Shown here piece by piece: positions 13,465 through 25,558 of a stretch of DNA of 34,531 nucleotides; within the stretch, counting starts at the first letter, position 1, and every line of letters starts with the position of its first letter. Source of the DNA: an uncultured Clostridia bacterium. Lineage in GTDB: Bacteria; Bacillota; Clostridia; Oscillospirales; Ruminococcaceae. A model generated the notes under the pieces. That model had not been told where the DNA came from. It ran no database searches and worked only from the letters and a program-made list of their open reading frames with translations. The DNA lies in NCBI GenBank assembly GCA_945873955.1, contig CAMCFA010000025.1, forward strand, positions 1-34,531, given 5' to 3'. A program made the translations under genes and the position numbers.

Positions 13465-13502
13465 TAGCACATCTGCGTGATCAAGTATTGGAGGAATCAA
13501 AG

Positions 13503-15938
13503 ATGAAACACGCATTGAGAAAATATATCTCACCGTGTGGAAGCGCACTGTTTATGGTCGTCAGTACTATGGCGGCCCTGATCGTGCTGGTCACGGCTAT
13601 GTATATGTCCGTGCTTTCTTCCAGACAGGTGCAGTATGCAACTTTTGACCAGGAGCAGGCGTATGTATCGTCCACATCAATTGCGGATATCATCTGCTCA
13701 TATATCGCGGACAATAAAAACGGCAGCGACCCGTTTGTACAAAAGGTGCTGAAACTTGAAAATCCAGGGGACAGCATTTCCACAAATGGCAACGGTTTCG
13801 CTTCGCTGAACGGCGGTTCAAACGATGACACCATTCTTGGTGGATATGACGTTGGCGTTACCAAAATGAAGGACGAAACTATCAGCGGCACAACATGGCA
13901 TGTATATGATGTCGCTGTAACCGTGGCAAACAATGGCGTGCTTGAAACTACACATACCTATCTGCGAACAAAGGATCCTGAGCCGGAGGATATGCCTCCC
14001 ATTGACAGATTCTTTACGGCAACAGGATATATTCCGAACGACGTGTGGATCGATAGTGGAACATATAATTCTACTCTTTATGTTGACTCCGAGTATGTGC
14101 AGTTCGGTAACGTTGTAGGCGGACTTGGAAATCTGGACATCAACTCTGGTCTGATCTGCGCTGGTACGGCGGTGTTCAAGCATGGCTCGGCACAACAGGT
14201 AGACACTTCTGAGCCAACTCTTTGGGCTATCGGTAATAACATGATAATTCAGTCCCAGCCGGATAGATTCAATCTTGGAGGCACTGCCGCTGATCATGGA
14301 ACTTTGATCATTGGTGGAAATCTTGATGTTCAGCATATTACAGTTTTTGGTTCTGGTGATGGACCTACTGATGTTTATGTGCTTGGTGATCTTTATATCA
14401 GAAACTCAAAAACTGATTTTTACGGAAACCTCTATGTAAACGGCAATATCTATATAGATATCACGGGCGAGCAAAAGATGGATATGCACGGCGGAAGGAT
14501 CTATCAGACGTCCTCTGGCACAATAGATGTACCGACCGATGGTTCATTAACTCGAATTAGGTATGACGGCTCGGAAGTAACCATTGATGAGATCAAGTCA
14601 ACTCCGTGGATAGAATCTGAGACCTCTCCTATGGAAATGATGACGCAGGAAGAAGTTGGTTCAAAGCTAGATGAAGCTATCGGAGCTTCCGTTTATCCTA
14701 AGTGGATCGCAAACATCGATGCGGCAAAGAAAAATGTCAAGAACATATTCTTTAACGCTAACTGGGGCGAAACAGACCTTACCGCTATAGAGGTTCCAGA
14801 CCCTAACAATCCCGACAAAACCGTTTCACTTATCTCTCATTATGGACTGTCAGAGACAAAGATGACACCAAAATTTGTGGAAGTGATAGATTCCGACTGC
14901 ACGATCGGCGATATAGTAAATGTCGGTCCTTGGGTCCAAGGCACAAACTTGACCATTATTTTTGACACCGGTAGTGCGGGGAACACGCTTACCATTAATC
15001 TTGAGGCAAATACCGACCTTGATCCTGACGACGGTGACGACACCCTTAACGGATTTACCTGGGCTGCCGCTGACGAAAGCAGCGGGTTTATTGATCTTCA
15101 CAGCTCGGATAAGTTGCTTAGACAAGATAGGATGAATATCTTGACGGTAGGAGACGGAAATTTGGTTATCAATGTCCCTGAGTATACGGTCACTGATGAT
15201 GAAACCGGTGAAAAGGAGACCAGGAGCGTCATCTATCAAGCTACACCACAGGAGTTCTTCGGGCATTACGGCTGGTACATGTTCTCCGGAGGAAGCGTTC
15301 AAACATTAGAATTCAACGGAACAAGTTACCAAAGATACGGAAGCTGTACCACATCGTCAAATATGCCAGACAAGGTACGTAAAATGATCCACAGTGCAGA
15401 CGGCTGCACAGATTGTGCCGACCCTGCAAAACCCGAAGATAATAAATATGTTGAATGCAAGAATTCCAACGGCGATAAGGGTTATACATGCAGTATCCAC
15501 GGCGGATTTGTTGAGGCGGAGACTAAGCCCACAACCTGTCAGTGTACGGGAAGAATCGAGAAGGATGAATTCCCGGAGTATTACTATGAGGGCGAGCTTC
15601 AAAGACCTAATGTGAATATCTTCCTTGTATCCTGCAGCGAGAGCGCGGACATTCAAATCGGCTGTCTGAAATATCCGCTTGGCGGTAAGGTAGGCGTAAA
15701 CGAAAATGTTTACTACGGCTATGTTTACGCTCCTTATATGACCTACATGGATAAATCAGACGGTGCGGGCGGTGGTCTTAAGAGCACAGGAGGCATCATC
15801 GTATCAGACTATATCATGGCTGGATTCTACGAGTATGTTTATGCTAAGCCGGATCAGTCGATCGAGGAGATCGTTGGCAAGGATTTTGACCCGGTAACAC
15901 CTAATGCAAACCGTTCGTGGCGCATTCACGGTGTTTAA
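13503..15938 (+). CDS. Large PilX-like pilus-associated protein with beta-helix-like repeats and a Cys cluster
   Basis: An 811-residue protein anchored by an N-terminal helix (about residues 10-35, after PCGSALFMVVSTMAAL) that resembles PilX_N minor pilin N-termini but lacks the classical G/FxxxE cleavage site. Residues about 190-330 carry repeated short beta motifs with Gly/Asn turns (GTLIIGGNLDVQ, VYVLGDLYI, GNLYVNGNIYID), suggestive of a bactofilin-like or beta-helix fold. Cys 635 to Cys 681 form a cluster (CTDC, then CQC at 679-681), possibly zinc or disulfide. The start is the ATG with TTGGAGGAATC 8-14 bases upstream; a TTG start 15 bases earlier would overlap that RBS. It precedes two prepilin genes, so it may be a tip or adhesin-like minor component. 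Function is inferred from context. Confidence 0.65.
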   Translation: MKHALRKYISPCGSALFMVVSTMAALIVLVTAMYMSVLSSRQVQYATFDQEQAYVSSTSIADIICSYIADNKNGSDPFVQKVLKLENPGDSISTNGNGFASLNGGSNDDTILGGYDVGVTKMKDETISGTTWHVYDVAVTVANNGVLETTHTYLRTKDPEPEDMPPIDRFFTATGYIPNDVWIDSGTYNSTLYVDSEYVQFGNVVGGLGNLDINSGLICAGTAVFKHGSAQQVDTSEPTLWAIGNNMIIQSQPDRFNLGGTAADHGTLIIGGNLDVQHITVFGSGDGPTDVYVLGDLYIRNSKTDFYGNLYVNGNIYIDITGEQKMDMHGGRIYQTSSGTIDVPTDGSLTRIRYDGSEVTIDEIKSTPWIESETSPMEMMTQEEVGSKLDEAIGASVYPKWIANIDAAKKNVKNIFFNANWGETDLTAIEVPDPNNPDKTVSLISHYGLSETKMTPKFVEVIDSDCTIGDIVNVGPWVQGTNLTIIFDTGSAGNTLTINLEANTDLDPDDGDDTLNGFTWAAADESSGFIDLHSSDKLLRQDRMNILTVGDGNLVINVPEYTVTDDETGEKETRSVIYQATPQEFFGHYGWYMFSGGSVQTLEFNGTSYQRYGSCTTSSNMPDKVRKMIHSADGCTDCADPAKPEDNKYVECKNSNGDKGYTCSIHGGFVEAETKPTTCQCTGRIEKDEFPEYYYEGELQRPNVNIFLVSCSESADIQIGCLKYPLGGKVGVNENVYYGYVYAPYMTYMDKSDGAGGGLKSTGGIIVSDYIMAGFYEYVYAKPDQSIEEIVGKDFDPVTPNANRSWRIHGV

Positions 15939-15958
15939 TTGATAGGGAGGGAAGACGC

Positions 15959-16945
15959 ATGAAAAAGAAACTCCTTACCAAGCGGGGCTTCTCTATCGTT
16001 GAGGTTATGGTCGCTTTCGTCATATTCGCCATAATGGCAGGTATGGTCGCTACTATACTTAGCAGCACCATGCAGGCAAAGCGCGAGAACACAGACCTTG
16101 AAGAAGAAATAGCCCAACAGCAGAACGCGTATTACACGAAAACCCAAGATAAGACTTATGACAGCTCCAGCAGCGAGCAACTGACCTTCAATTTTACTGG
16201 GGTCGATCCGGTGAAAATAAAATACTCAATCGGAGATCCCAATGCAGCTGACGCGGATAACCAAATCGCACTTGAGTACTTTATCGGCAATGTGGATTAC
16301 AGTGTAATGAGCGGCAAGGGTGGCAGCTCAACTCCTGAAAAGGAGAGCGGCTCCGGCAGCGTGGCAGACCGTTTCGCTAAGACAAATATCTACGGCTCTA
16401 ACGGCATAACCAGCATAAACGTTATTTTACACAGGGACGAAAGCTATACCGAGGGAAACCGATATCTTATCGCAGCAAAGGCGGTGGGTCAAGTTGATAC
16501 TCAGTATGACATGTTCAAACAGTATCGGCTGACATTCCCTAGCAATATCTTGAAATATGGGTACTGCAACTATGAAGTCGCGAGCAAATCTTTCAGAGAT
16601 ATTGGAACAGCATCGCCCAGCGGCTATAATATCACCTCGACGACAAGCACTACGCTTAGGATTGCGCCAACGCAGTCATCATTAAGCGATCCCCTTGTAA
16701 ATAAGGGTTATAAGGCAATGTATGTTGTTCTGGATACTCCGCTTGAATCAATTTCGCCGACGCTTAATCTGTATGACATTTTCGGTTGCTGCTATACCGG
16801 GCAGACAGATAAGTCGGCGCAGACCGACGATGGAAGCTACAAGTTTACCAGATATGTTGAGAAGTCCACTGACAAAGACGGTAATACTGTTGAGACTACT
16901 CACATAAACATCTTCGCAGCAGTTGAAAAAGCAAAGGCTTCATAA
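15959..16945 (+). CDS. Minor prepilin, PilV-like
   Basis: A 328-residue prepilin: a basic leader KKKLLTKRG, then FSIVEVMVAFVIFAIMAGMV, which has Phe+1 and Glu+5 after the Gly of the PilD site and a hydrophobic helix. The rest is a long Ser/Thr/Asn-rich globular domain I do not recognise. The ATG at 15959 has GGGAGGGAAGACGC upstream; an earlier in-frame start at 15917 would overlap the previous gene and add residues before the leader peptide, so it is rejected. The PilV label rests on the V-E-V-M motif style and position; minor pilin class is uncertain. Confidence 0.8.
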   Translation: MKKKLLTKRGFSIVEVMVAFVIFAIMAGMVATILSSTMQAKRENTDLEEEIAQQQNAYYTKTQDKTYDSSSSEQLTFNFTGVDPVKIKYSIGDPNAADADNQIALEYFIGNVDYSVMSGKGGSSTPEKESGSGSVADRFAKTNIYGSNGITSINVILHRDESYTEGNRYLIAAKAVGQVDTQYDMFKQYRLTFPSNILKYGYCNYEVASKSFRDIGTASPSGYNITSTTSTTLRIAPTQSSLSDPLVNKGYKAMYVVLDTPLESISPTLNLYDIFGCCYTGQTDKSAQTDDGSYKFTRYVEKSTDKDGNTVETTHINIFAAVEKAKAS

Positions 16946-16957
16946 GGAGGGGCAGAT

Positions 16958-17776
16958 ATGAAGAAAATAATGCGCCTTTTCCGGAGAAAGTCAGGATTTA
17001 CGCTGGTCGAAATGGTTGTTGCTGTGGCTCTCTTGGCTATTCTCCTTGGCGGGATGATGCTCTTTATTTCGCCGATCGTAAGGAGCTTCAATGACAACCA
17101 CACTGACCTTACCGCCGAAAATGGGGCGGTTTGCGTACAGGAGTACATTACCAAAAGCATACGCAATGCAAATCAAGTCGCGATATTTGCTAACACCAAC
17201 TATTCAGATTTAAGCAGCAACGCAACCTACACTGCAAAAATCGCTAAAATGAACAAGTTCTGTACCGACGTTAATGCAGGTGCGAAGGACGACAAAAATA
17301 AGATCTACCTTCTCAAATGCATTAGTTTGAAGTATGATAGCACCGACGGGAGATATTATCTCTATAACGAAACCGTCAAGGATAACGGTGAGCTAGACAC
17401 CACAGCCGGCAAAACGCAAAAGGTTTTCAGCGACTGTCTGTTTAACGACCTGTATATGACCTTTGAACTCAAAAAGGCAAAGAACGGCGATTATCTGGTA
17501 ATTACTGGCGCGCCAGAATATCGTGACGATACGCTTGACATTACGATATGCGCTTACAGAGATGAAGATCGTAAGAGCCTTGCATTTCAAGGCAACGGGC
17601 TTTCGGAACTTCGGCAGATAAAGGTAATGCTAAATGCCGGCGGAAGCAAGGACGATTATAATTTATCTGTTTATCCTGATCCGGCAGTGCTGAAATCGTT
17701 CGCTGATATGGACGAGGGATCAAAAGATATCTTTATCTACTATGTTGTCCGCCAGATGAACACTTCTACTACTTAA
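16958..17776 (+). CDS. Minor prepilin, PilW-like
   Basis: A 272-residue prepilin with leader MKKIMRLFRRKSG and mature start FTLVEMVVAVALLAILLGGM (Phe+1, Glu+5). The globular part is unrecognised. RBS AAGGAGGGG precedes the ATG, and the gene starts 12 bases after the previous prepilin, so the two are likely co-translated. It is the last gene of the first pilus operon, which converges on pilD. Confidence 0.82.
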   Translation: MKKIMRLFRRKSGFTLVEMVVAVALLAILLGGMMLFISPIVRSFNDNHTDLTAENGAVCVQEYITKSIRNANQVAIFANTNYSDLSSNATYTAKIAKMNKFCTDVNAGAKDDKNKIYLLKCISLKYDSTDGRYYLYNETVKDNGELDTTAGKTQKVFSDCLFNDLYMTFELKKAKNGDYLVITGAPEYRDDTLDITICAYRDEDRKSLAFQGNGLSELRQIKVMLNAGGSKDDYNLSVYPDPAVLKSFADMDEGSKDIFIYYVVRQMNTSTT

Positions 17777-19057: not shown

Positions 19058-19084
19058 AATACCCTGAAAGGAAGAATGTGCATA

Positions 19085-20791
19085 ATGGCTGGACCAATCA
19101 GAAATCTGCCTATCGGTCAGATACTGGTAGAGAACGGATTCATCAATGAAAAACAGCTTGCGGAGGCGCTGGAAAAACAAAAATCCAGCGGCGGCAAAAT
19201 GCTGGGCGACGTAATGCTGGAAATGGGGCTTGTGTCTGAAACACAATTGGCGCAGGCGCTGTCTATCAGACTAAAGGTGCCGTTTGTTGATCTGGCTTCC
19301 GTCCAGATCAACAAGGACGCCGTAATGAAGATCCCGGAGCAGACCGCGAGGGAAAAGACAGTCATTGCATTCGACATGCACAACAACCGGCTGATGGTCG
19401 CTTCTAACGACCCGATCAACTTCTACATCTTTGAGGAGCTGAAGGTTCAGACCGGCATGGAGATAGTGCCGCAGATCTCGACTAAAACCCAGATCGAGGA
19501 AGCTATCGGCAGATTCTACTCGCAGCAGACCGTAAACAAGGTTATGAACGAGCTGGACGACGAGGCTGCCGCTGCGGCTCAGGTCAACCAAGCAGATATA
19601 GAGTCCGGCGAGCGTATCGACAACGCGCCTATCGTTCGTCTGGTAAACACAATGGTAGAGACTGCGTTCAGAATAAACGCTTCGGATATCCATATAGAGC
19701 CGTTCAAGACCCGGACGAGAATTCGTTTCAGAATCGACGGCGAACTGGTAGAGCAGGAAGCCATGAAGGTTTCTATCGCGCTGCATAACTCACTTATCAC
19801 GAGAATCAAGATCCTCGGCGGTATGAATATCGCCGAAAAGAGAATCCCGCTTGACGGTCGATTCGGTATGAAGATCGACGGCGTAAGCCTTGATGTCCGT
19901 GTATCTACGATCCCCTGCGTTTACGGTGAGAAGTGCGTTATACGTCTTCTTTCCACCGCGGACGAAAAGACTCGTAAGATCACCGACCTCGGTATGACGG
20001 ACTATAACTACGAGATGTTCAAGCAGATAATCCGCTGCCCGAACGGAGTTATGCTGGTAACAGGTCCTACCGGTTCCGGTAAGTCCACAACGTTGTACGC
20101 GACCCTCGGCGAGCTTTCAAAGCCTAACGTAAACATCGTAACGGTTGAGGACCCTGTCGAGAAAAAGATAGACGGTGTAAACCAGTGCCAGATCAACGCT
20201 AAAGCCGGCATGACCTTCGCGGCGGCGCTGCGTTCTATCCTGCGTCAGGACCCGGATATCATAATGGTCGGTGAGATCCGTGACGGCGAGACGGCGGATA
20301 TCGCTATCAGAGCCGCTATCACGGGACACTTCGTACTTTCGACATTGCATACCAACGACGCGGCTTCGACTATCGTCCGTCTGGTGGACATGGGCGTTGC
20401 TCCGTACATGGTTGCGTCCTCGCTGGTAGGTATCATCGCACAGCGACTTGTTAAGCTGCTTTGCAACGAGTGCAAGGAAACAATCACGCTGACAGACCCC
20501 GCGGACCTCAGGCTGGTAAGCAAGGATAAGCCGGTGCAGATCTGCCAGGCGCACAAGGGCGGCTGCAAGAAGTGCAGAGGAACAGGTTATTCCGGACGTA
20601 CCGCTATCCATGAGATCATCGTTACGTCGAACGATATAAAGGAGCTTATCTCCAAGGGCGCTACCGCTGAGGAGATAGGAAAGAAAGCGACCGAAAACGG
20701 CACGCTGCTGCTCCGCGACAACGTAACTAAGATGGTTCTTGAAGGAAGGACCACCATGGACGAGTTGGTAAAAGCGACCTATACGGTTTAA
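19085..20791 (+). CDS. pilB: Type IV pilus extension ATPase PilB (GspE family)
   Basis: A 568-residue hexameric ATPase driving pilus assembly. Residues 8-70 form an MshEN/GSPII_E N-terminal domain (PIGQILVENGFINEKQLAEA; then LGDVMLEMGLVSETQLAQAL), a fold that binds c-di-GMP in MshE, but the leading arginine of its first motif is Pro here. The ATPase part has Walker A GPTGSGKST (327-335), Asp box VTVEDPVE, Walker B DIIMVGEIRD (391-400) and His box. A zinc motif lies at C460-x2-C463 and C494-x2-C497. The ATG at 19085 has AAGGAAG about ten bases upstream; the ATG at 19076 would overlap that RBS. It heads the second pilus group. Confidence 0.95.
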   Translation: MAGPIRNLPIGQILVENGFINEKQLAEALEKQKSSGGKMLGDVMLEMGLVSETQLAQALSIRLKVPFVDLASVQINKDAVMKIPEQTAREKTVIAFDMHNNRLMVASNDPINFYIFEELKVQTGMEIVPQISTKTQIEEAIGRFYSQQTVNKVMNELDDEAAAAAQVNQADIESGERIDNAPIVRLVNTMVETAFRINASDIHIEPFKTRTRIRFRIDGELVEQEAMKVSIALHNSLITRIKILGGMNIAEKRIPLDGRFGMKIDGVSLDVRVSTIPCVYGEKCVIRLLSTADEKTRKITDLGMTDYNYEMFKQIIRCPNGVMLVTGPTGSGKSTTLYATLGELSKPNVNIVTVEDPVEKKIDGVNQCQINAKAGMTFAAALRSILRQDPDIIMVGEIRDGETADIAIRAAITGHFVLSTLHTNDAASTIVRLVDMGVAPYMVASSLVGIIAQRLVKLLCNECKETITLTDPADLRLVSKDKPVQICQAHKGGCKKCRGTGYSGRTAIHEIIVTSNDIKELISKGATAEEIGKKATENGTLLLRDNVTKMVLEGRTTMDELVKATYTV

Positions 20792-20947
20792 TAGTGACAT
20801 TCACATTTGGCGGGGACTAAGGGACGCCGGGCATGAGGCTCATGGACGGAATACGGACAGCGGAACGCCGTGCGGACGTGGACGTTATGCCGGGCAGACC
20901 AACAGTACTGCTGCCGGAATAATTCTACATAAAGGAGCGTAATTAAC
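20792..20947 (+). other. GC-rich spacer between pilB and pilT
   Basis: 156 bases, G and C rich, with no recognised gene or terminator. A 29-codon ORF (20833-20922, beginning MRLMDGIRTAERR) has no convincing RBS. Short runs such as GGGACTAAGGGACGCC and CAGTACTG could fold, but no riboswitch class is recognised. It may be a structured spacer or degenerate sequence. Confidence 0.35.
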
Positions 20948-22027
20948 GTGGAAGGTATGACAAATATAATGGATATCAACAGGATCCTTGATGAGGCGCG
21001 CGAGTTGGGCTGCTCGGACTTGCACTTCACAGCGGGTCTGCCGCCGGTCGTAAGACTGCACGGCTCTATCAGGAAGCTGTCCGGATATCCCGACTGCACG
21101 GAGCCGATAATCGTTAATATCATCAATCAGATCACCTCGATCAAGCATAAGTCACAGATCTCAAAGGGTCTGGACACTGACTTCTCGTATGTGTCCACTG
21201 CGGGCTTCCGTCACAGAGTTAACGTGTACCGCCAGAGAGGCTACCACGCCGTGGCGATACGTCTTTTGAGAAACGATATCCCGACGCTGGCTGACCTTAA
21301 CCTGCCGGGAACGCTGGGCGAGTTCGCTATGGCGCCCCGTGGACTGGTGCTGGTAACAGGTCCTACCGGTTCCGGTAAGTCCACCACACTGGCGGCTATG
21401 ATCGACCACATCAACCGTTCAAAGAACTGCCACATCATCACAGTTGAGGACCCTATCGAGTATCTGCACACCCACAAACAGTCTATGGTGAACCAGCGTG
21501 AAATAGGACAGGACGTCGACAGCTTCGCAGGGTCGCTGAGAGCGGCTCTCCGTGAGGACCCGGACGTTATCCTCGTCGGAGAAATGCGTGACTTCGAGAC
21601 GATCAACGCGGCTGTTACTGCGGCTGAAACCGGTCACCTGGTATTCTCGACACTGCATACCACCGGCGCGGCTGAAACAATCGACCGTATCATCGACGTT
21701 TACCCGCCGCACTCACAGGGACAGATCCGTTCGCAGCTCGCGAACTCTGTCGTAGGTATCATCTCACAGACCCTCGTTCCCACAGCGGACGGCAAGGGCA
21801 GATGTGCGGCTCTGGAGATACTCGCGGCTACCGACGCGGTAAGAGCGATGATCCGTGAGGGTAAGATATTCCAGATCCCGACAGCTATCGCAACGGGTAA
21901 GAAGAACGGAATGTTCACCCTCGACCAAGACCTCGCACGTCTTGTTAATATGGGCAAGATCACGAACGAGGTCGCTCTGTCAAGATGTCAGGATCCGAAC
22001 GAGTACAGAAGATACCTGTCTATCTAA
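20948..22027 (+). CDS. pilT: Type IV pilus retraction ATPase PilT
   Basis: A 359-residue ATPase that disassembles the pilus and drives twitching. Motifs: early SDLHFTAGLPPVVRLHG (23-39), Walker A GPTGSGKST (138-146), VEDPIEYLH (166-174), Walker B DPDVILVGEMRD (204-215), His box STLHTTGAAETIDRIID, the QIRSQLANSV-GIISQTLVP segment, and AVRAMIREGKIFQI near 307, the PilT version of AIRNLIRE. The start is GTG with AAAGGAGCG upstream; an internal ATG nine bases later (in EGM) is a fair alternative. PilT rather than a second PilB, by length and the AIRNLIRE-like motif. Confidence 0.95.
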   Translation: MEGMTNIMDINRILDEARELGCSDLHFTAGLPPVVRLHGSIRKLSGYPDCTEPIIVNIINQITSIKHKSQISKGLDTDFSYVSTAGFRHRVNVYRQRGYHAVAIRLLRNDIPTLADLNLPGTLGEFAMAPRGLVLVTGPTGSGKSTTLAAMIDHINRSKNCHIITVEDPIEYLHTHKQSMVNQREIGQDVDSFAGSLRAALREDPDVILVGEMRDFETINAAVTAAETGHLVFSTLHTTGAAETIDRIIDVYPPHSQGQIRSQLANSVVGIISQTLVPTADGKGRCAALEILAATDAVRAMIREGKIFQIPTAIATGKKNGMFTLDQDLARLVNMGKITNEVALSRCQDPNEYRRYLSI

Positions 22028-22083: not shown

Positions 22084-22120
22084 TGGCAGTTACGGCATTA
22101 TTTTGGGTAAGGGTGGTTAT

Positions 22121-22723
22121 ATGAAAAGAGCGGCGAAAAACCGCGGTTTTACACTGGTGGAGCTGGTCGTTGTTATTGCGATAATCGGCGTATTGGCGGG
22201 GATACTTATCCCGACAATGTACGGCGTGGTGACTGACTCGCGCATTGCTATGGGTAATCAGTCGGCGAAGGAGATCAAGGACAGAGCCACTGAATTCCTC
22301 ACGATGATGGACACGGATAACGCAGGTCACATCGGCGGAAAGCAGACCGTGATTATGAAAGCACAGGGTGGAAAATGGAATATCTCCGGGGGTAACGGCG
22401 AAAGCGACTGGCTGGACGATACCGACCACTGGACGACCGTGACCGAGGTCATAGCGCCGGGGTATGTCCCGAACAGGGGGACGGAGTTCCTGTCGTATAT
22501 GGCGGACAGCTTGTATACTCTGGGGGACAGCTATATTGAGGTGCATATAGACAACGGGCGGGTCATCGGCGTGGCGATTGTCATGGGGACGGTGGACGCT
22601 GTGGCAGTTATGCCCTCAATGGACGACTTCCAGCAGGGGGAGTTCGGGTTCAACGGGTCGAAAAAGGCGGGGATCGAGGATAATATTGTCGTCGGAACTT
22701 CGCCGGTGCTTATTTTACCGTGA
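22121..22723 (+). CDS. PilA-type prepilin, paralogue of the major pilin
   Basis: A 200-residue prepilin with leader MKRAAKNRG and mature start FTLVELVVVIAIIGVLAGIL. Its C-terminal part (SMDDFQQGEFGFNGSKKAG, then GTSPVLILP) parallels that of the next pilin (SIDDFKAGDTDEFEGKAG, then GTSPTLAL), so the two are tandem duplicates. Codons here look GC-rich and less biased, unlike the A/T-ending, highly regular codons of the major pilin, suggesting lower expression. The ATG at 22121 has GGGTGG upstream; a TTG at 22103 is open but lacks support. It may be a minor or alternative pilin, or an initiator. Confidence 0.85.
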   Translation: MKRAAKNRGFTLVELVVVIAIIGVLAGILIPTMYGVVTDSRIAMGNQSAKEIKDRATEFLTMMDTDNAGHIGGKQTVIMKAQGGKWNISGGNGESDWLDDTDHWTTVTEVIAPGYVPNRGTEFLSYMADSLYTLGDSYIEVHIDNGRVIGVAIVMGTVDAVAVMPSMDDFQQGEFGFNGSKKAGIEDNIVVGTSPVLILP

Positions 22724-23005: not shown

Positions 23006-23701
23006 ATGATAAAGAAGCTTCAGGCTCTCAGAGCCAAGAAGGGCTTTACTCTCGTAGAGCTCGTAGTAGTAATCGCTATCATCGGCGTACTTGCTGCTAT
23101 CCTCGTTCCTACTATGCTGGGCGTTGTTCAGGATTCCAGAATCACTTCTTCCAACTCTACCGCACAGCAGATCAAGGACAGAACCACTGAGTTCCTTACC
23201 AAGATGGACGCTGCTAAGGCATCTTTCGTTGCTGATGACGCAGTAGCTGCTCCGTTCTATGTAGACAACAGCGAATGGAACCTTGGTACTGTAAGTTCAG
23301 GCAGCGGAACTACTGCAGGCTCTGGCACAACTACTGGTGACCCCGATGATGATAACTGGCTCGACGGCAACGATCACTGGGGCGAGAAGTTCGACAACAA
23401 GGATCCGGACGCTACTACCAATGACAACAAGGATACTCAGTACATCGCTTATGTTGCTGACTCCCTGTCCGACCTCAAGAACGCTGTTGGCATAGTTTAC
23501 ATTGAGGCTGGTAAGGTTGTAGGCGTAGCAGTTATCGAGGGTACTACCACTGTTCCGACCGGTGTTTCTTTCCCCAGCATTGACGACTTCAAGGCTGGCG
23601 ATACTGACGAATTTGAGGGCAAGGCTGGCGTTAAGAACAATGTAATCATTGGTACTTCTCCCACACTGGCACTCTCTACTACAGCTGCACCTACTACTTA
23701 A
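23006..23701 (+). CDS. pilA: Major type IV pilin (PilA type)
   Basis: A 231-residue prepilin with leader MIKKLQALRAKKG and mature start FTLVELVVVIAIIGVLAAIL (Phe+1, Glu+5), closely resembling Ruminococcus PilA-type pilins as I know them. After the helix come QDSRITSSNSTAQQIKD, a variable Thr/Gly/Asp-rich loop (TVSSGSGTTAGSGTTTG), and the conserved tail SIDDFKAG...GTSPTLAL. Codons are strongly regular, the RBS is near-perfect (AGGAGG) and it has its own promoter: these support the role of main pilus subunit. No Cys pair marks a disulfide loop. Downstream is a GNRA-loop hairpin then a long inverted repeat. Confidence 0.92.
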   Translation: MIKKLQALRAKKGFTLVELVVVIAIIGVLAAILVPTMLGVVQDSRITSSNSTAQQIKDRTTEFLTKMDAAKASFVADDAVAAPFYVDNSEWNLGTVSSGSGTTAGSGTTTGDPDDDNWLDGNDHWGEKFDNKDPDATTNDNKDTQYIAYVADSLSDLKNAVGIVYIEAGKVVGVAVIEGTTTVPTGVSFPSIDDFKAGDTDEFEGKAGVKNNVIIGTSPTLALSTTAAPTT

Positions 23702-23726
23702 TTAGTTATCCAGCACAACACTTTGT

Positions 23727-23750
23727 CCTCGGCGGCGCAAGCCGTCGGGG
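23727..23750 (+). terminator. Hairpin after the major pilin gene, possible weak terminator
   Basis: CCTCGGCGGC (23727-23736) pairs with GCCGTCGGGG (23741-23750) with two wobble pairs and a GCAA tetraloop. The tail is ATTTAG, poor in T, so termination is likely partial and the next gene could receive readthrough. It could also protect the pilin mRNA 3' end. Confidence 0.55.
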
Positions 23751-23754
23751 ATTT

Positions 23755-23804
23755 AGTGTTATTAATAAAGAAGATCAGAAGTGGTCTTTTTTATTAATAA
23801 CACT
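23755..23804. repeat. Perfect 15-bp inverted repeat between the major pilin and the protease gene
   Basis: AGTGTTATTAATAAA (23755-23769) and its exact complement TTTATTAATAACACT (23790-23804), spacer 20 bases. The spacer itself can add AAGATC/GGTCTT with wobble pairs, and contains TCTTTTTT. It could be a terminator/antiterminator, an RNA processing site or a protein-binding palindrome. Confidence 0.75.
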
Positions 23805-23824
23805 GGTATGGTATCGGAGGAACG

Positions 23825-24790
23825 ATGAAGAAAATACTGCTGATTGTCGTTTCAATAGCACTGATGATCGGTGCAGCAGTGTACATATTATTCGTGCTTG
23901 AAAGCAATGGTGTTGTTTCGATAGGCGATGCGCTGAGCCGAGCGTTTAAAGTGAAATATCCTCTGAGCTTTTATATGGGCGAAAACGGCACTGCCGACAA
24001 GCTGGAGGGCAAAACCGTATGCGTGTCGCTGTTTGTCGACCTTGAAAACAACAAATGGCATGACGAGGACACAGACAGCGAAAAAATAGAGAACTGTTAT
24101 GATAACCTGCGAATGGCAACATACTGGTTAACTGACCAAGTCGCTGAATACAGTAAAAGCGCTGAGTTTATCTATGACTGGAAGAAATATCCCGAGCTTT
24201 ATCATGAGGTGGAGCCGGTCGGAAAGTATTATGTCTATCAGCTCCGCGAGAATGACGGTTATAATCTGTTGTGGGATTATGTGAACAATAATGTGAATTC
24301 AGCAGAACTGCTTGAAAGATTTGATGCCGATAACATAATTTATGTTACATATTTTGATGTCAATAAGGGTAGCAGAACCGACGCCTGTGCTAAAGACTGC
24401 TATTTTGATCCGCAGTATTCCTATGAAATGATATATATTCCACAAGGGTACAATGGATTTGAAATTACTGCTACTGCAATTGCGCACGAAATACTTCATG
24501 TTTTCGGAGCGCCAGATTGGTTTCAAGGCGGTTCTGACCCGTTATTTTTTGGAGTCGGAGATAAGTGCATAAATTACATGTTTGAGAATTACCCGAACGA
24601 TATAATGGTGAGAACATTTGACCGAGAAAGAAACAAGCCGTTTTACGGCGAGGTCAACGGGGAAATCTCAGAAATGACGGCATATTATGTCGGGCTTATT
24701 GACGAAGCGCCCAGCGCCGTATTCGATTTTAACTTGGATCTTAGCCAGCACGATCCGAACCGTCCGAGGTTCGTTCCCGACGAGGAATAG
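23825..24790 (+). CDS. Membrane-anchored metzincin-like zinc protease in the pilus locus
   Basis: A 321-residue protein with a short basic N-terminus and one membrane helix (about residues 3-25, KKILLIVVSIALMIGAAVYI), so the catalytic part would be outside. Residues 221-231 read HEILHVFGAPD, an HExxHxxGxxD zinc site with H221, E222, H225 and D231. Metzincins use HExxHxxGxxH/D and a later Met-turn; NDIM (M261) is a candidate. I do not recognise the family, and proteolysis is an inference. RBS CGGAGGAACG precedes the ATG. The gene is more AT rich in codon use than its neighbours, with Cys and Asn common, hinting at separate origin. It sits between the major pilin and another prepilin. It might process pili or host/plant surface proteins. 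Confidence 0.75.
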   Translation: MKKILLIVVSIALMIGAAVYILFVLESNGVVSIGDALSRAFKVKYPLSFYMGENGTADKLEGKTVCVSLFVDLENNKWHDEDTDSEKIENCYDNLRMATYWLTDQVAEYSKSAEFIYDWKKYPELYHEVEPVGKYYVYQLRENDGYNLLWDYVNNNVNSAELLERFDADNIIYVTYFDVNKGSRTDACAKDCYFDPQYSYEMIYIPQGYNGFEITATAIAHEILHVFGAPDWFQGGSDPLFFGVGDKCINYMFENYPNDIMVRTFDRERNKPFYGEVNGEISEMTAYYVGLIDEAPSAVFDFNLDLSQHDPNRPRFVPDEE

Positions 24791-24841: not shown

Positions 24842-25558
24842 ATGATAAAATACCTTCAAAGACTTAAAGGCAAAAAGGGCTTCACGATCGTGGAGCTGGT
24901 AGTCGTTGTTGCTATCATTGCGGTGCTGATAACGATCATGTCTGCCGCGCTGCTGGGAGGAAATACGGAAAAGATCCTTTCCGCTAATGCAAGCGCTGAG
25001 GCGTTTTTCCCGGCATGCCAGCTTGCGTTCACAAGGGCGCAGCTCACCGAGCGGGAGCTTGTGACTTATGAATCCACGGATACCAAATTTATCGAATACA
25101 AGGAAGGCAAAAACCAGATTCCCGACGGGAAATTCTTGTTCGTAGAGGCTAAGTTCGAGCAGAGCGGTATTGTCGGGCTGCATATCAACTATACCCTCAA
25201 CGAGCTGATGGCGCGGGACGATTTCACCGCGGCTATGACAGCGCTGGAAAGATACCTTGCGACTAACATAAACGAGTACCTCGCGGACAGCTACGACGGG
25301 TATTTCTACGCGCAGGTGGACAATAATTTCAAGGTAGTGTTCACGCATTTCTGCGACGGCAGGCTTCCCGTTTGGAACGGCACGGACGATTATGATACCT
25401 TCCGCGACTCCATGATGGTGGACTCGCAGGGCAAGATCACAGGCAACAAGCTGATCATTGGCTCATGCTCGGACGTTTACACGGTGCCTGAGACCGGACA
25501 GTACGCGTTCGATCTGCCGGAATCAACAAGCGACTACTCGAAATATTTCAAGCTGTGA
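24842..25558 (+). CDS. Prepilin-type protein at the end of the pilus locus
   Basis: A 238-residue prepilin with leader MIKYLQRLKGKKG and mature start FTIVELVVVVAIIAVLITIM (Phe+1, Glu+5). The rest (many Tyr/Phe/Asp) is not recognised and does not share the GTSP tail of the major pilin. RBS AAAGGCAGGA is upstream of the ATG, and a strong terminator follows. It is likely another minor pilin or pseudopilin-like tip subunit. Confidence 0.82.
   Translation: MIKYLQRLKGKKGFTIVELVVVVAIIAVLITIMSAALLGGNTEKILSANASAEAFFPACQLAFTRAQLTERELVTYESTDTKFIEYKEGKNQIPDGKFLFVEAKFEQSGIVGLHINYTLNELMARDDFTAAMTALERYLATNINEYLADSYDGYFYAQVDNNFKVVFTHFCDGRLPVWNGTDDYDTFRDSMMVDSQGKITGNKLIIGSCSDVYTVPETGQYAFDLPESTSDYSKYFKL

Follow-up and report, generated by a model that had tools for sequence, protein, structure and literature searches.

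Why does a gene for a membrane-anchored protease lie among the pilin genes of a gut bacterium? Among proteases, it is prepilin peptidase that is known as a component of type IV pilus systems. The case considered here comes from a stretch of 34,531 nucleotides (the window) of genome G000, from a gut bacterium akin to the fibre-digesting ruminococci, in which a metzincin-like protease of 321 amino acids is encoded on the forward strand (23825..24790), as are all features given below in the same start..end form. An earlier sequence-only reading had placed this gene between a pilin and another prepilin, and Pfam scans agree: a DUF5021 prepilin, which also matches N_methyl, lies upstream (23006..23701) and an N_methyl prepilin downstream (24842..25558). 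The new finding is that full-length relatives of the protease stand beside prepilin genes in 14 of 14 genomes, in two genera. Because the gene repeatedly travels beside a pilin gene, this suggests that the protease trims, sheds or tunes the pilin. We give about an even chance to the explanation that this membrane-tethered metzincin serves as accessory to a type IV pilin within an exchangeable cassette, acting at the membrane on its partner, the upstream pilin, or on the pilus. The computed evidence consists of a metzincin fold, conserved active-site residues, a single membrane helix followed by a short tether, and genes that are linked to pilin genes and vary jointly with them.

What kind of protein is this? 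The open reading frame (ORF) begins with ATG just 3' of a ribosome-binding-site-like GGAGG (23816..23820) and runs for 321 codons. A single N-terminal membrane helix had been claimed and is borne out by a strong hydrophobic segment at residues 4-22 (Kyte-Doolittle 2.90, and at most 0.98 past residue 40) and by a helix at residues 2-27 of the structure model (predicted local distance difference test 88.2, predicted template modelling score 0.82). The helix, at approximately residues 4-26 (23834..23902), has no lipobox and is presumably a signal anchor; the MKK that precedes it suggests that the protease faces outward. The catalytic domain, delimited by the range aligned to metzincins, covers approximately residues 61-313 (24005..24763). 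Exactly where the sequence-only reading had put them are HEILHVFGAPD at residues 221-231 (24485..24517), with predicted zinc ligands H221, H225 and D231 and predicted general base E222, and NDIM at residues 258-261 (24596..24607), the predicted Met-turn. The HExxHxxGxxD pattern arose in 6 of 200,000 shuffles of the protease sequence and occurs once in the window (six frames, stop-to-stop segments of at least 60 residues). That reading had named a fold other than metzincin, or loss of the motif among orthologues, as grounds for giving it up. The predicted fold is a metzincin, comparable with that of the adamalysins/ADAMs/TACE (M12B), and the motif is kept in 16 of 16 rows of an alignment (A1) drawn from a whole-sequence search without a motif filter, in all of which H221, E222, H225, G228, D231 and M261 are retained. 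The zinc motif, the downstream Met and the predicted fold place the protein among the metzincins (MEROPS subclan MA(M)), for which zinc binding and proteolytic activity would be expected.

How general is the link to pilins? A profile (A3) built from eight members seen beside pilins was searched against a second genus, g16 (71 genomes), and gave 24 matches in 19 genomes. Twelve of these are full-length, beginning at profile position 1-5, and the other 12 begin at a position of at least 32. With the window and G010, the 12 from g16 bring the full-length form to 14 genomes, spread over two genera. Eight of them had supplied the rows of the profile, and the link is tested by the six new ones (G432, G453, G461, G463, G479 and G485), all six of which lie beside prepilin genes, as do the rest. 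In a prepilin motif scan of 1.5-kb flanks, 13 of the 14 were positive, G010 being missed by the strict pattern with its prepilins directly upstream, as against none of 29 other family members (some with flanks cut by contig ends). Six genomes (G010, G432, G463, G480, G482 and G484) have both forms, and only the full-length form is pilin-linked. The protease gene is directly 3' of a pilin in 12 of the 14; a further prepilin intervenes in G010 and two small ORFs in G482. More prepilins follow it in most loci read. Among the best 80 of 258 relatives in a wider scan, five have a prepilin close by (L032, L069, L072, L076 and L090), and these are the loci of G010, G484, G482, G462 and G480, as judged by identical ORFs. 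Not counted as linked were L110, with a 73-residue motif ORF about 5 kb off, and L030, with a 70-residue ORF about 1.9 kb off; a pilin may have gone unseen where the contig stops within the flank, as in L178, L183 and L188 among others.

The pair is found at several chromosomal sites. It lies in a pilus/flagellar locus in G000 and G010, beside an alcohol-aldehyde dehydrogenase gene in G173, G462 and G479, beside an S-adenosylmethionine decarboxylase gene in opposite orientations in G297 and G480, and beside RNase Y and LytTR-like genes in G484, G461, G453 and G432 (by Pfam on G484 and for the others by similarity, 89-96% and 44-77%); G482, G485 and G463 have it at other sites. All 14 protease genomes have a PilB match and 13 a second, PilT-like match, the exception being G484, whose pilB is near a contig end. 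In g16, protease and pilB are on different contigs, except that in G173, a closed genome, 163 kb separate them. Since the g16 pair occupies several sites apart from pilB, the protease in this genus goes with the pilin and not with the machine, and this relocation is the strongest argument suggesting that the pilin is its partner. A search with the WYL gene for empty sites of the adhE type matched 6 of 71 genomes, and the four loci read had no pilin just upstream. As side observations, small paired ORFs that look toxin-antitoxin-like by eye lie inside cassettes in L072 (7370-7937; no Pfam match) and, just 3' of the protease, in L194.

The pilin and protease also vary together, and far more than the core genes. 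G173 and G462 share the adhE context, and their nearest flanking proteins are 94-99% identical (adhE 99, WYL 94 and 98; further out 80-99), against 43% for the upstream pilin, 51% for the protease and 60% for the second pilin. At the DNA level the two genomes agree at 0.92-1.00 upstream; past the conserved 5' end of the pilin gene, identity drops to 0.51-0.70, stays low across pilin, protease and second pilin, and recovers to 0.82-0.99 beyond. The fall is gentler where RNase Y is the neighbour (G484 against G461: cassette 0.57-0.79, pilin 5' end 0.94, flank 0.66-0.91). Between G432 and G463, PilB is 98% and the non-linked paralogue 86% identical, against 38% for the pilin-linked protease and 34% for the pilin head. 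Other pairs, by whole-protein BLAST, give 36-55% for the protease and 39-76% for the first pilin. In the window's own genus, comparison of the window with G020, from which the protease is absent, gives DNA identities of 0.84-0.99 in pilB and pilT, 0.76 in the gap between them, 0.47-0.63 in the pilin heads, 0.86 where the upstream pilin begins (its 5' end), 0.59-0.75 for the following prepilin and 0.76-0.89 in the flagellar genes. The sharp drop in identity over the cassette, seen in the one pair G173 and G462, is consistent with joint exchange of pilin and protease, without being proof of it.

How would the protease act? The cassette would comprise a pilin gene, a hairpin, the protease gene and, usually, further prepilins. 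Inserted by its helix, the enzyme would face outward, some 24 residues off the membrane, in the zone where pilins await assembly and to which retracting pili return. There it might cut the accessible portions of whichever pilin or minor pilin its neighbouring gene encodes, and the outcome could be that misassembled subunits are removed, that pilus number is set, or that pili are shed so that the cell comes free of plant fibre. With pilin abundant, the hairpin behind its gene would hold the enzyme at a much lower level. The substrate is a predicted one, as are activity, zinc binding, orientation and exchange as a unit. Of the roles offered in the sequence-only reading, maturing or shedding pilins is possible; a plant polymer seems an unlikely target, given that the fold is that of a protease and the tether of about 24 residues is short. 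A bolder version, which we think less likely than not, is that each variable pilin has its own dedicated membrane metzincin that cuts that pilin, forming a built-in release switch for adhesive pili, and that the two are swapped between genomes as one unit by recombination anchored in the conserved pilin 5' end.

Could the targets instead be foreign? The protease might cut the surface proteins of competitors, pilus-binding phage or host proteins, with the divergence of the cassettes arising from conflict with phages or neighbours. The variation of cassettes between near-identical flanks would fit this, and in Pseudomonas some cassette accessory proteins glycosylate pilins and thereby evade phage, according to the available sections of PMC11841053. 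PADLOC, on the other hand, had no match for the three members scanned, and the cassette pilins vary as much as the protease, which exchange of pilin alleles alone would account for. The tether also speaks against it. The linked form has a strong membrane helix in all 14 cases (2.45-3.27) and no lipobox save one chance match inside the helix, and 22-36 residues (median 24) separate helix and domain, against 8-1164 (median 64) in 103 other members, of which 57 have a lipobox-like motif. (The comparison set was 104 others, 29 from the flank scan and 75 from the wider scan with some genomes in both, of which 103 were measurable, L055 being cut; the Mann-Whitney p of 3e-4 is only a guide, the sequences being related.) A short tether, which is a tendency of the linked form and not a rule, would hold the active site near the membrane, poorly placed for external proteins, and we regard foreign targets as unlikely.

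Alternatively, the metzincin domain might serve as a TfpY-like pilin chaperone, an assembly factor in which catalysis is secondary. Its gene occupies the same genetic slot as those of TfpX/Y/Z, which raise twitching (PMC11841053, in the sections available), and its domain is close to the membrane. Nevertheless, the zinc-site residues and the catalytic Glu are invariant in eight linked proteins whose identity to the window protein is 25-32%. Such constancy indicates that catalysis has been under selection, and we consider a mainly chaperone-like role improbable.

Several observations weigh against the favoured explanation. The linked form is absent from 41 of 43 genomes of the window's genus and 59 of 71 of g16, some of them incomplete. 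Inspection of the linked pilins by eye revealed neither a cleavage site nor a tail particular to them. The correlation between pilin and protease distances is weak once PilB distance is removed (mirror-tree test, partial r 0.19, p 0.056; g16 alone, partial r 0.20, p 0.068). The predicted fold has modest Foldseek TM-scores (template modelling scores) of 0.26-0.40 by query length among the 50 matches listed. Pilin gaps lacking a protease fold as well as or better than those with one (6 of 6, z-scores -7.18 to -9.55). Eight of the 103 unlinked members (L039, L048, L075, L080, L108, L110, L161 and L162) also have a strong helix, a short tether and no lipobox, with no pilin near, which rules out this architecture as an exclusive mark of the linked lineage; the probability given to the favoured explanation is unaffected by them, because the linkage count rests on the full-length match. 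Finally, the linkage may have one or two origins, since the trees disagree. In a first tree (88 rows, 8 linked) the linked members form one group (SH-like approximate likelihood ratio test 85); in a second (52 rows chosen by us, 14 linked) they form two, of 12 rows (support 100/100) and of the window with G010 (99/93), and a single linked group appears in 2% of 200 bootstrap trees, although the approximately unbiased test does not reject a single linked clade (p 0.438). A pilin subtype unique to the protease-linked pilins was also looked for, by eye, and none was seen.

Might the gene then be a passenger, encoding a surface protease of general function that landed in pilin loci accidentally and is carried along by the recombination occurring there? 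The wider family is common and mostly unlinked (only the five of the best 80 of 258 already given are near a prepilin), and the eight unlinked members share the helix and tether. The protease is also accessory. The sequence-only reading had proposed conserved presence in orthologous pilin loci, and this holds for the neighbourhood, prepilins flanking every full-length relative, but not for the genus. Six of its loci were read closely (G020, G015, G021, G006, G005 and G008), and all have the same order of PilB, PilT, one or two pilins, next prepilin and flagellar genes, without the protease. Being present in 2 of 43 genomes and absent from these six related loci, the protease is not a core pilus gene, and a genus-wide role is ruled out. 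A passenger would, however, hardly be linked in 14 of 14 cases against 0 of 29, over several chromosomal contexts, with the paralogues in the same six genomes unlinked; we think this explanation, too, has little chance. That the protease instead processes other pilus products, either proteins exported by a pseudopilus-like, type II-like route or minor pilins only, might be read from the further prepilins 3' of it, but is very improbable, since the ORF lists, inspected by eye, showed no secreted cargo gene common to the loci and the shared neighbour is the upstream pilin.

What of the hairpin that separates pilin and protease? In the window, a terminator-like hairpin (23725..23752) is followed by a second, longer one of 24 pairs (23754..23805), and the whole gap has a z-score of -9.48. 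The terminator scanner was run on the window alone and called the hairpin terminator-like there. Stable hairpins occupy all 14 pilin-protease gaps (z -3.71 to -9.48; in G010 the gap is between prepilin and protease, and in G482 folding covered the first 147 of 690 bases). Because the structure also follows pilins in 6 of 6 loci without the protease, it is ruled out as a feature specific to the protease; it probably belongs to the pilin, behind which the protease gene has come to lie. A near-fixed hairpin sequence, CCTCGGCGGCG...GCCGTCGGGG, recurs 3' of pilins in loci of the genus (window 23725-23805, L003, L113-L116 and L118-L122); in several of these a second hairpin of varying sequence comes after the fixed one. 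The letters AACAC/GTGTT that flank the hairpin allow two alternative pairings.

The wider family matches no established model at its cut-off. Pfam and NCBIfam scans of the window protein found no family reaching its threshold: Peptidase M7 (PF02031) gave 13 bits (E 0.11) against a gathering score of 25 bits, Peptidase M6 (TIGR03296) had no match, and the Pfam M12B reprolysins had none at E 1. An Acyl_transf_2 match at 0.11 was taken as chance, and a defence or phage identity was rejected (PADLOC 0 of 3 members; best PHROGs E values of 0.063 and 0.055, taken as chance). Among 76 aligned relatives, TIGR03296 gives weak local matches around the motif in 50 (best 2.5e-5) and Reprolysin_5 matches 15 (best 0.0031); ten relatives scanned singly against TIGR03296 reached at best 22.1 bits against a cut-off of 110.8. 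Both M6 (immune inhibitor A) and M7 (snapalysin) are listed as Met-zincins in the available part of PMC3890501, and their weak matches in this family, local to the motif, score far below the curated cut-offs. M6 entries are absent among the fold matches listed, which is uninformative on M6; the 50 alignments listed have 6-12% identity.

A first single-protein scan of genome contigs found no match; a single-protein search detected relatives in 2 of 43 genomes at genus level and in 13 of 297 at family level, both counts including the genome of the window, and an alignment-based scan of named genomes confirmed 258. The best 80 of these are mostly from Lachnospiraceae, Oscillospiraceae/Ruminococcaceae and unplaced Clostridia, many of them from rumen or gut, with a few from Treponema and Erysipelotrichaceae; all 80 loci have the Asp of the motif. 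The 76-row alignment (A2) holds the window, 73 of the 80 loci and second copies in L057 and L058; L055, L065, L068, L077, L078, L095 and L096 were left out as cut or fused ORFs or as near-copies by eye. Invariant in all 76 rows are G55, W78, A220, H221, E222, H225, G228, D231, M261, A286, Y287 and G290, of which the AHExLHxFG stretch is invariant by construction (the scan pattern was AHE[IML]LHxFG) and D231, M261 and the rest lie outside the pattern. The last three belong to AYYVG (residues 286-290; 24680..24694), a family signature 3' of the Met. The distant member L164 has VM in place of IM at the Met-turn. Other architectures were seen in passing. A paralogue in G010 (L004 571-2292) has 573 amino acids, a lipobox-like N-terminus and a long extra N-terminal part; bacterial SH3 matches occur in 4 of the 76 rows and an fn3 match in 1. 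In L056 (7401-8768; same locus as L007/L022), NUDIX and protease domains share one ORF of 455 amino acids, which may be a true fusion or a misread start, and L096 (3-4550) has a 1515-residue open frame with the protease motif, cut at the locus end.

In the window, the pilus cluster comprises T2SSF (PilC-like), PilM_2, a peptidase A24 (PilD-like), two T2SSE ATPase genes (PilB- and PilT-like; 19076..22027) and a further DUF5021 prepilin of the array (22118..22723), and it adjoins flagellar genes (FlgK by Pfam). The names PilB, PilT, FlgM and FlgN are our assignments, FlgM having no Pfam match. The protease is single-copy in its genome, the sole other match being a 40-residue stretch (E 0.149), and Rfam families have 0 matches in the window. 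The sequence-only reading had noted codon use richer in AT than that of the neighbours, and the G+C content at third codon positions (GC3) of the protease gene, 0.478, is indeed below the 0.64-0.75 of pilD, pilB, pilT, the first pilin, the next prepilin and the measured flagellar genes. The pilin just upstream (0.500) and an 816-residue gene with two prepilins at 13488-17776 (0.48-0.52) are alike, however; AT richness is common to other pilus genes and therefore not peculiar to the protease gene. The 816-residue gene (13488-15938, within the pilus cluster) has no Pfam match and a GC3 of 0.480, like the pilin 5' of the protease.

A protease in the accessory slot would add proteolysis to the means of tuning bacterial pili, in the ruminococcal lineage, where pili are linked to cellulose attachment, and would make the exit of pilin from cells directly testable in carrier species. 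The linkage, the same-genome paralogue control and the cassette variation offer a first functional lead for a widespread gut protease family that lacks a Pfam or NCBIfam model. A structural comparison can be made with the M12B adamalysins, ADAMs and TACE, which the protein resembles in predicted fold, in the HExxHxxGxx(H/D) helix and in the Met downstream. TACE is a membrane-anchored sheddase. M12B enzymes have a third His at the zinc site, in whose place the window protein has Asp, and, unlike them, its Met is 30 residues past the Asp, it has an N-terminal membrane helix and there is no clear pro-domain in the model. If dedicated pilin-protease pairs were real, which is speculative and somewhat doubtful, they would bring an ADAM/TACE-like "sheddase" logic to bacterial type IV pili. 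PPEP-1, a zinc protease secreted by Clostridioides difficile, releases cells by cleaving adhesins on their own surface; it belongs to an unrelated family, is soluble, and has sortase-type adhesins rather than pilins as substrates.

Among the open-access papers listed as joining type IV pili with metalloproteases, metzincins or sheddases (titles and opening lines of abstracts, at most 15 entries to a listing), none was seen to describe a metzincin in a type IV pilin locus. In the passages covered, the word "protease" is absent from PMC3244431, PMC6916266 has prepilin peptidase alone, and the sole "metalloprotease" of PMC3672088 is FtsH. The window resembles the pil3/pil4 cluster of R. flavefaciens 007, which has pilD, pilB, pilT and pilins, and the R. 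albus GP25/CbpC pilins, in that pil genes cluster near flagellar genes; for the R. flavefaciens cluster, the available text names only the prepilin peptidase as a protease and mentions an unexplained OrfX, and a cellulose-linked pilin of this species is present in the culture supernatant (PMC3672088). The closest genetic parallel is with the pilin-accessory cassettes of P. aeruginosa, where, in the sections available, pilA is accompanied by tfpO, tfpW, tfpX, tfpY or tfpZ, and the accessory type differs between pilin groups (PMC11841053). There, as in some other bacteria, a comparable layout occurs, and the terminator has been proposed to attenuate the accessory gene (PMC11841053). Both arrangements have a variable pilin gene with an accessory gene behind it; between the two lies a Rho-independent terminator in Pseudomonas and a terminator-like hairpin here. 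The Pseudomonas accessory protein works on or together with its pilin, as the protease would. The Pseudomonas accessories, however, are glycosyltransferases or membrane proteins and assembly factors with three predicted helices, in a diderm (PMC11841053), whereas here the accessory is a metzincin, in Clostridia, often with more prepilins after it and sometimes away from pilB.
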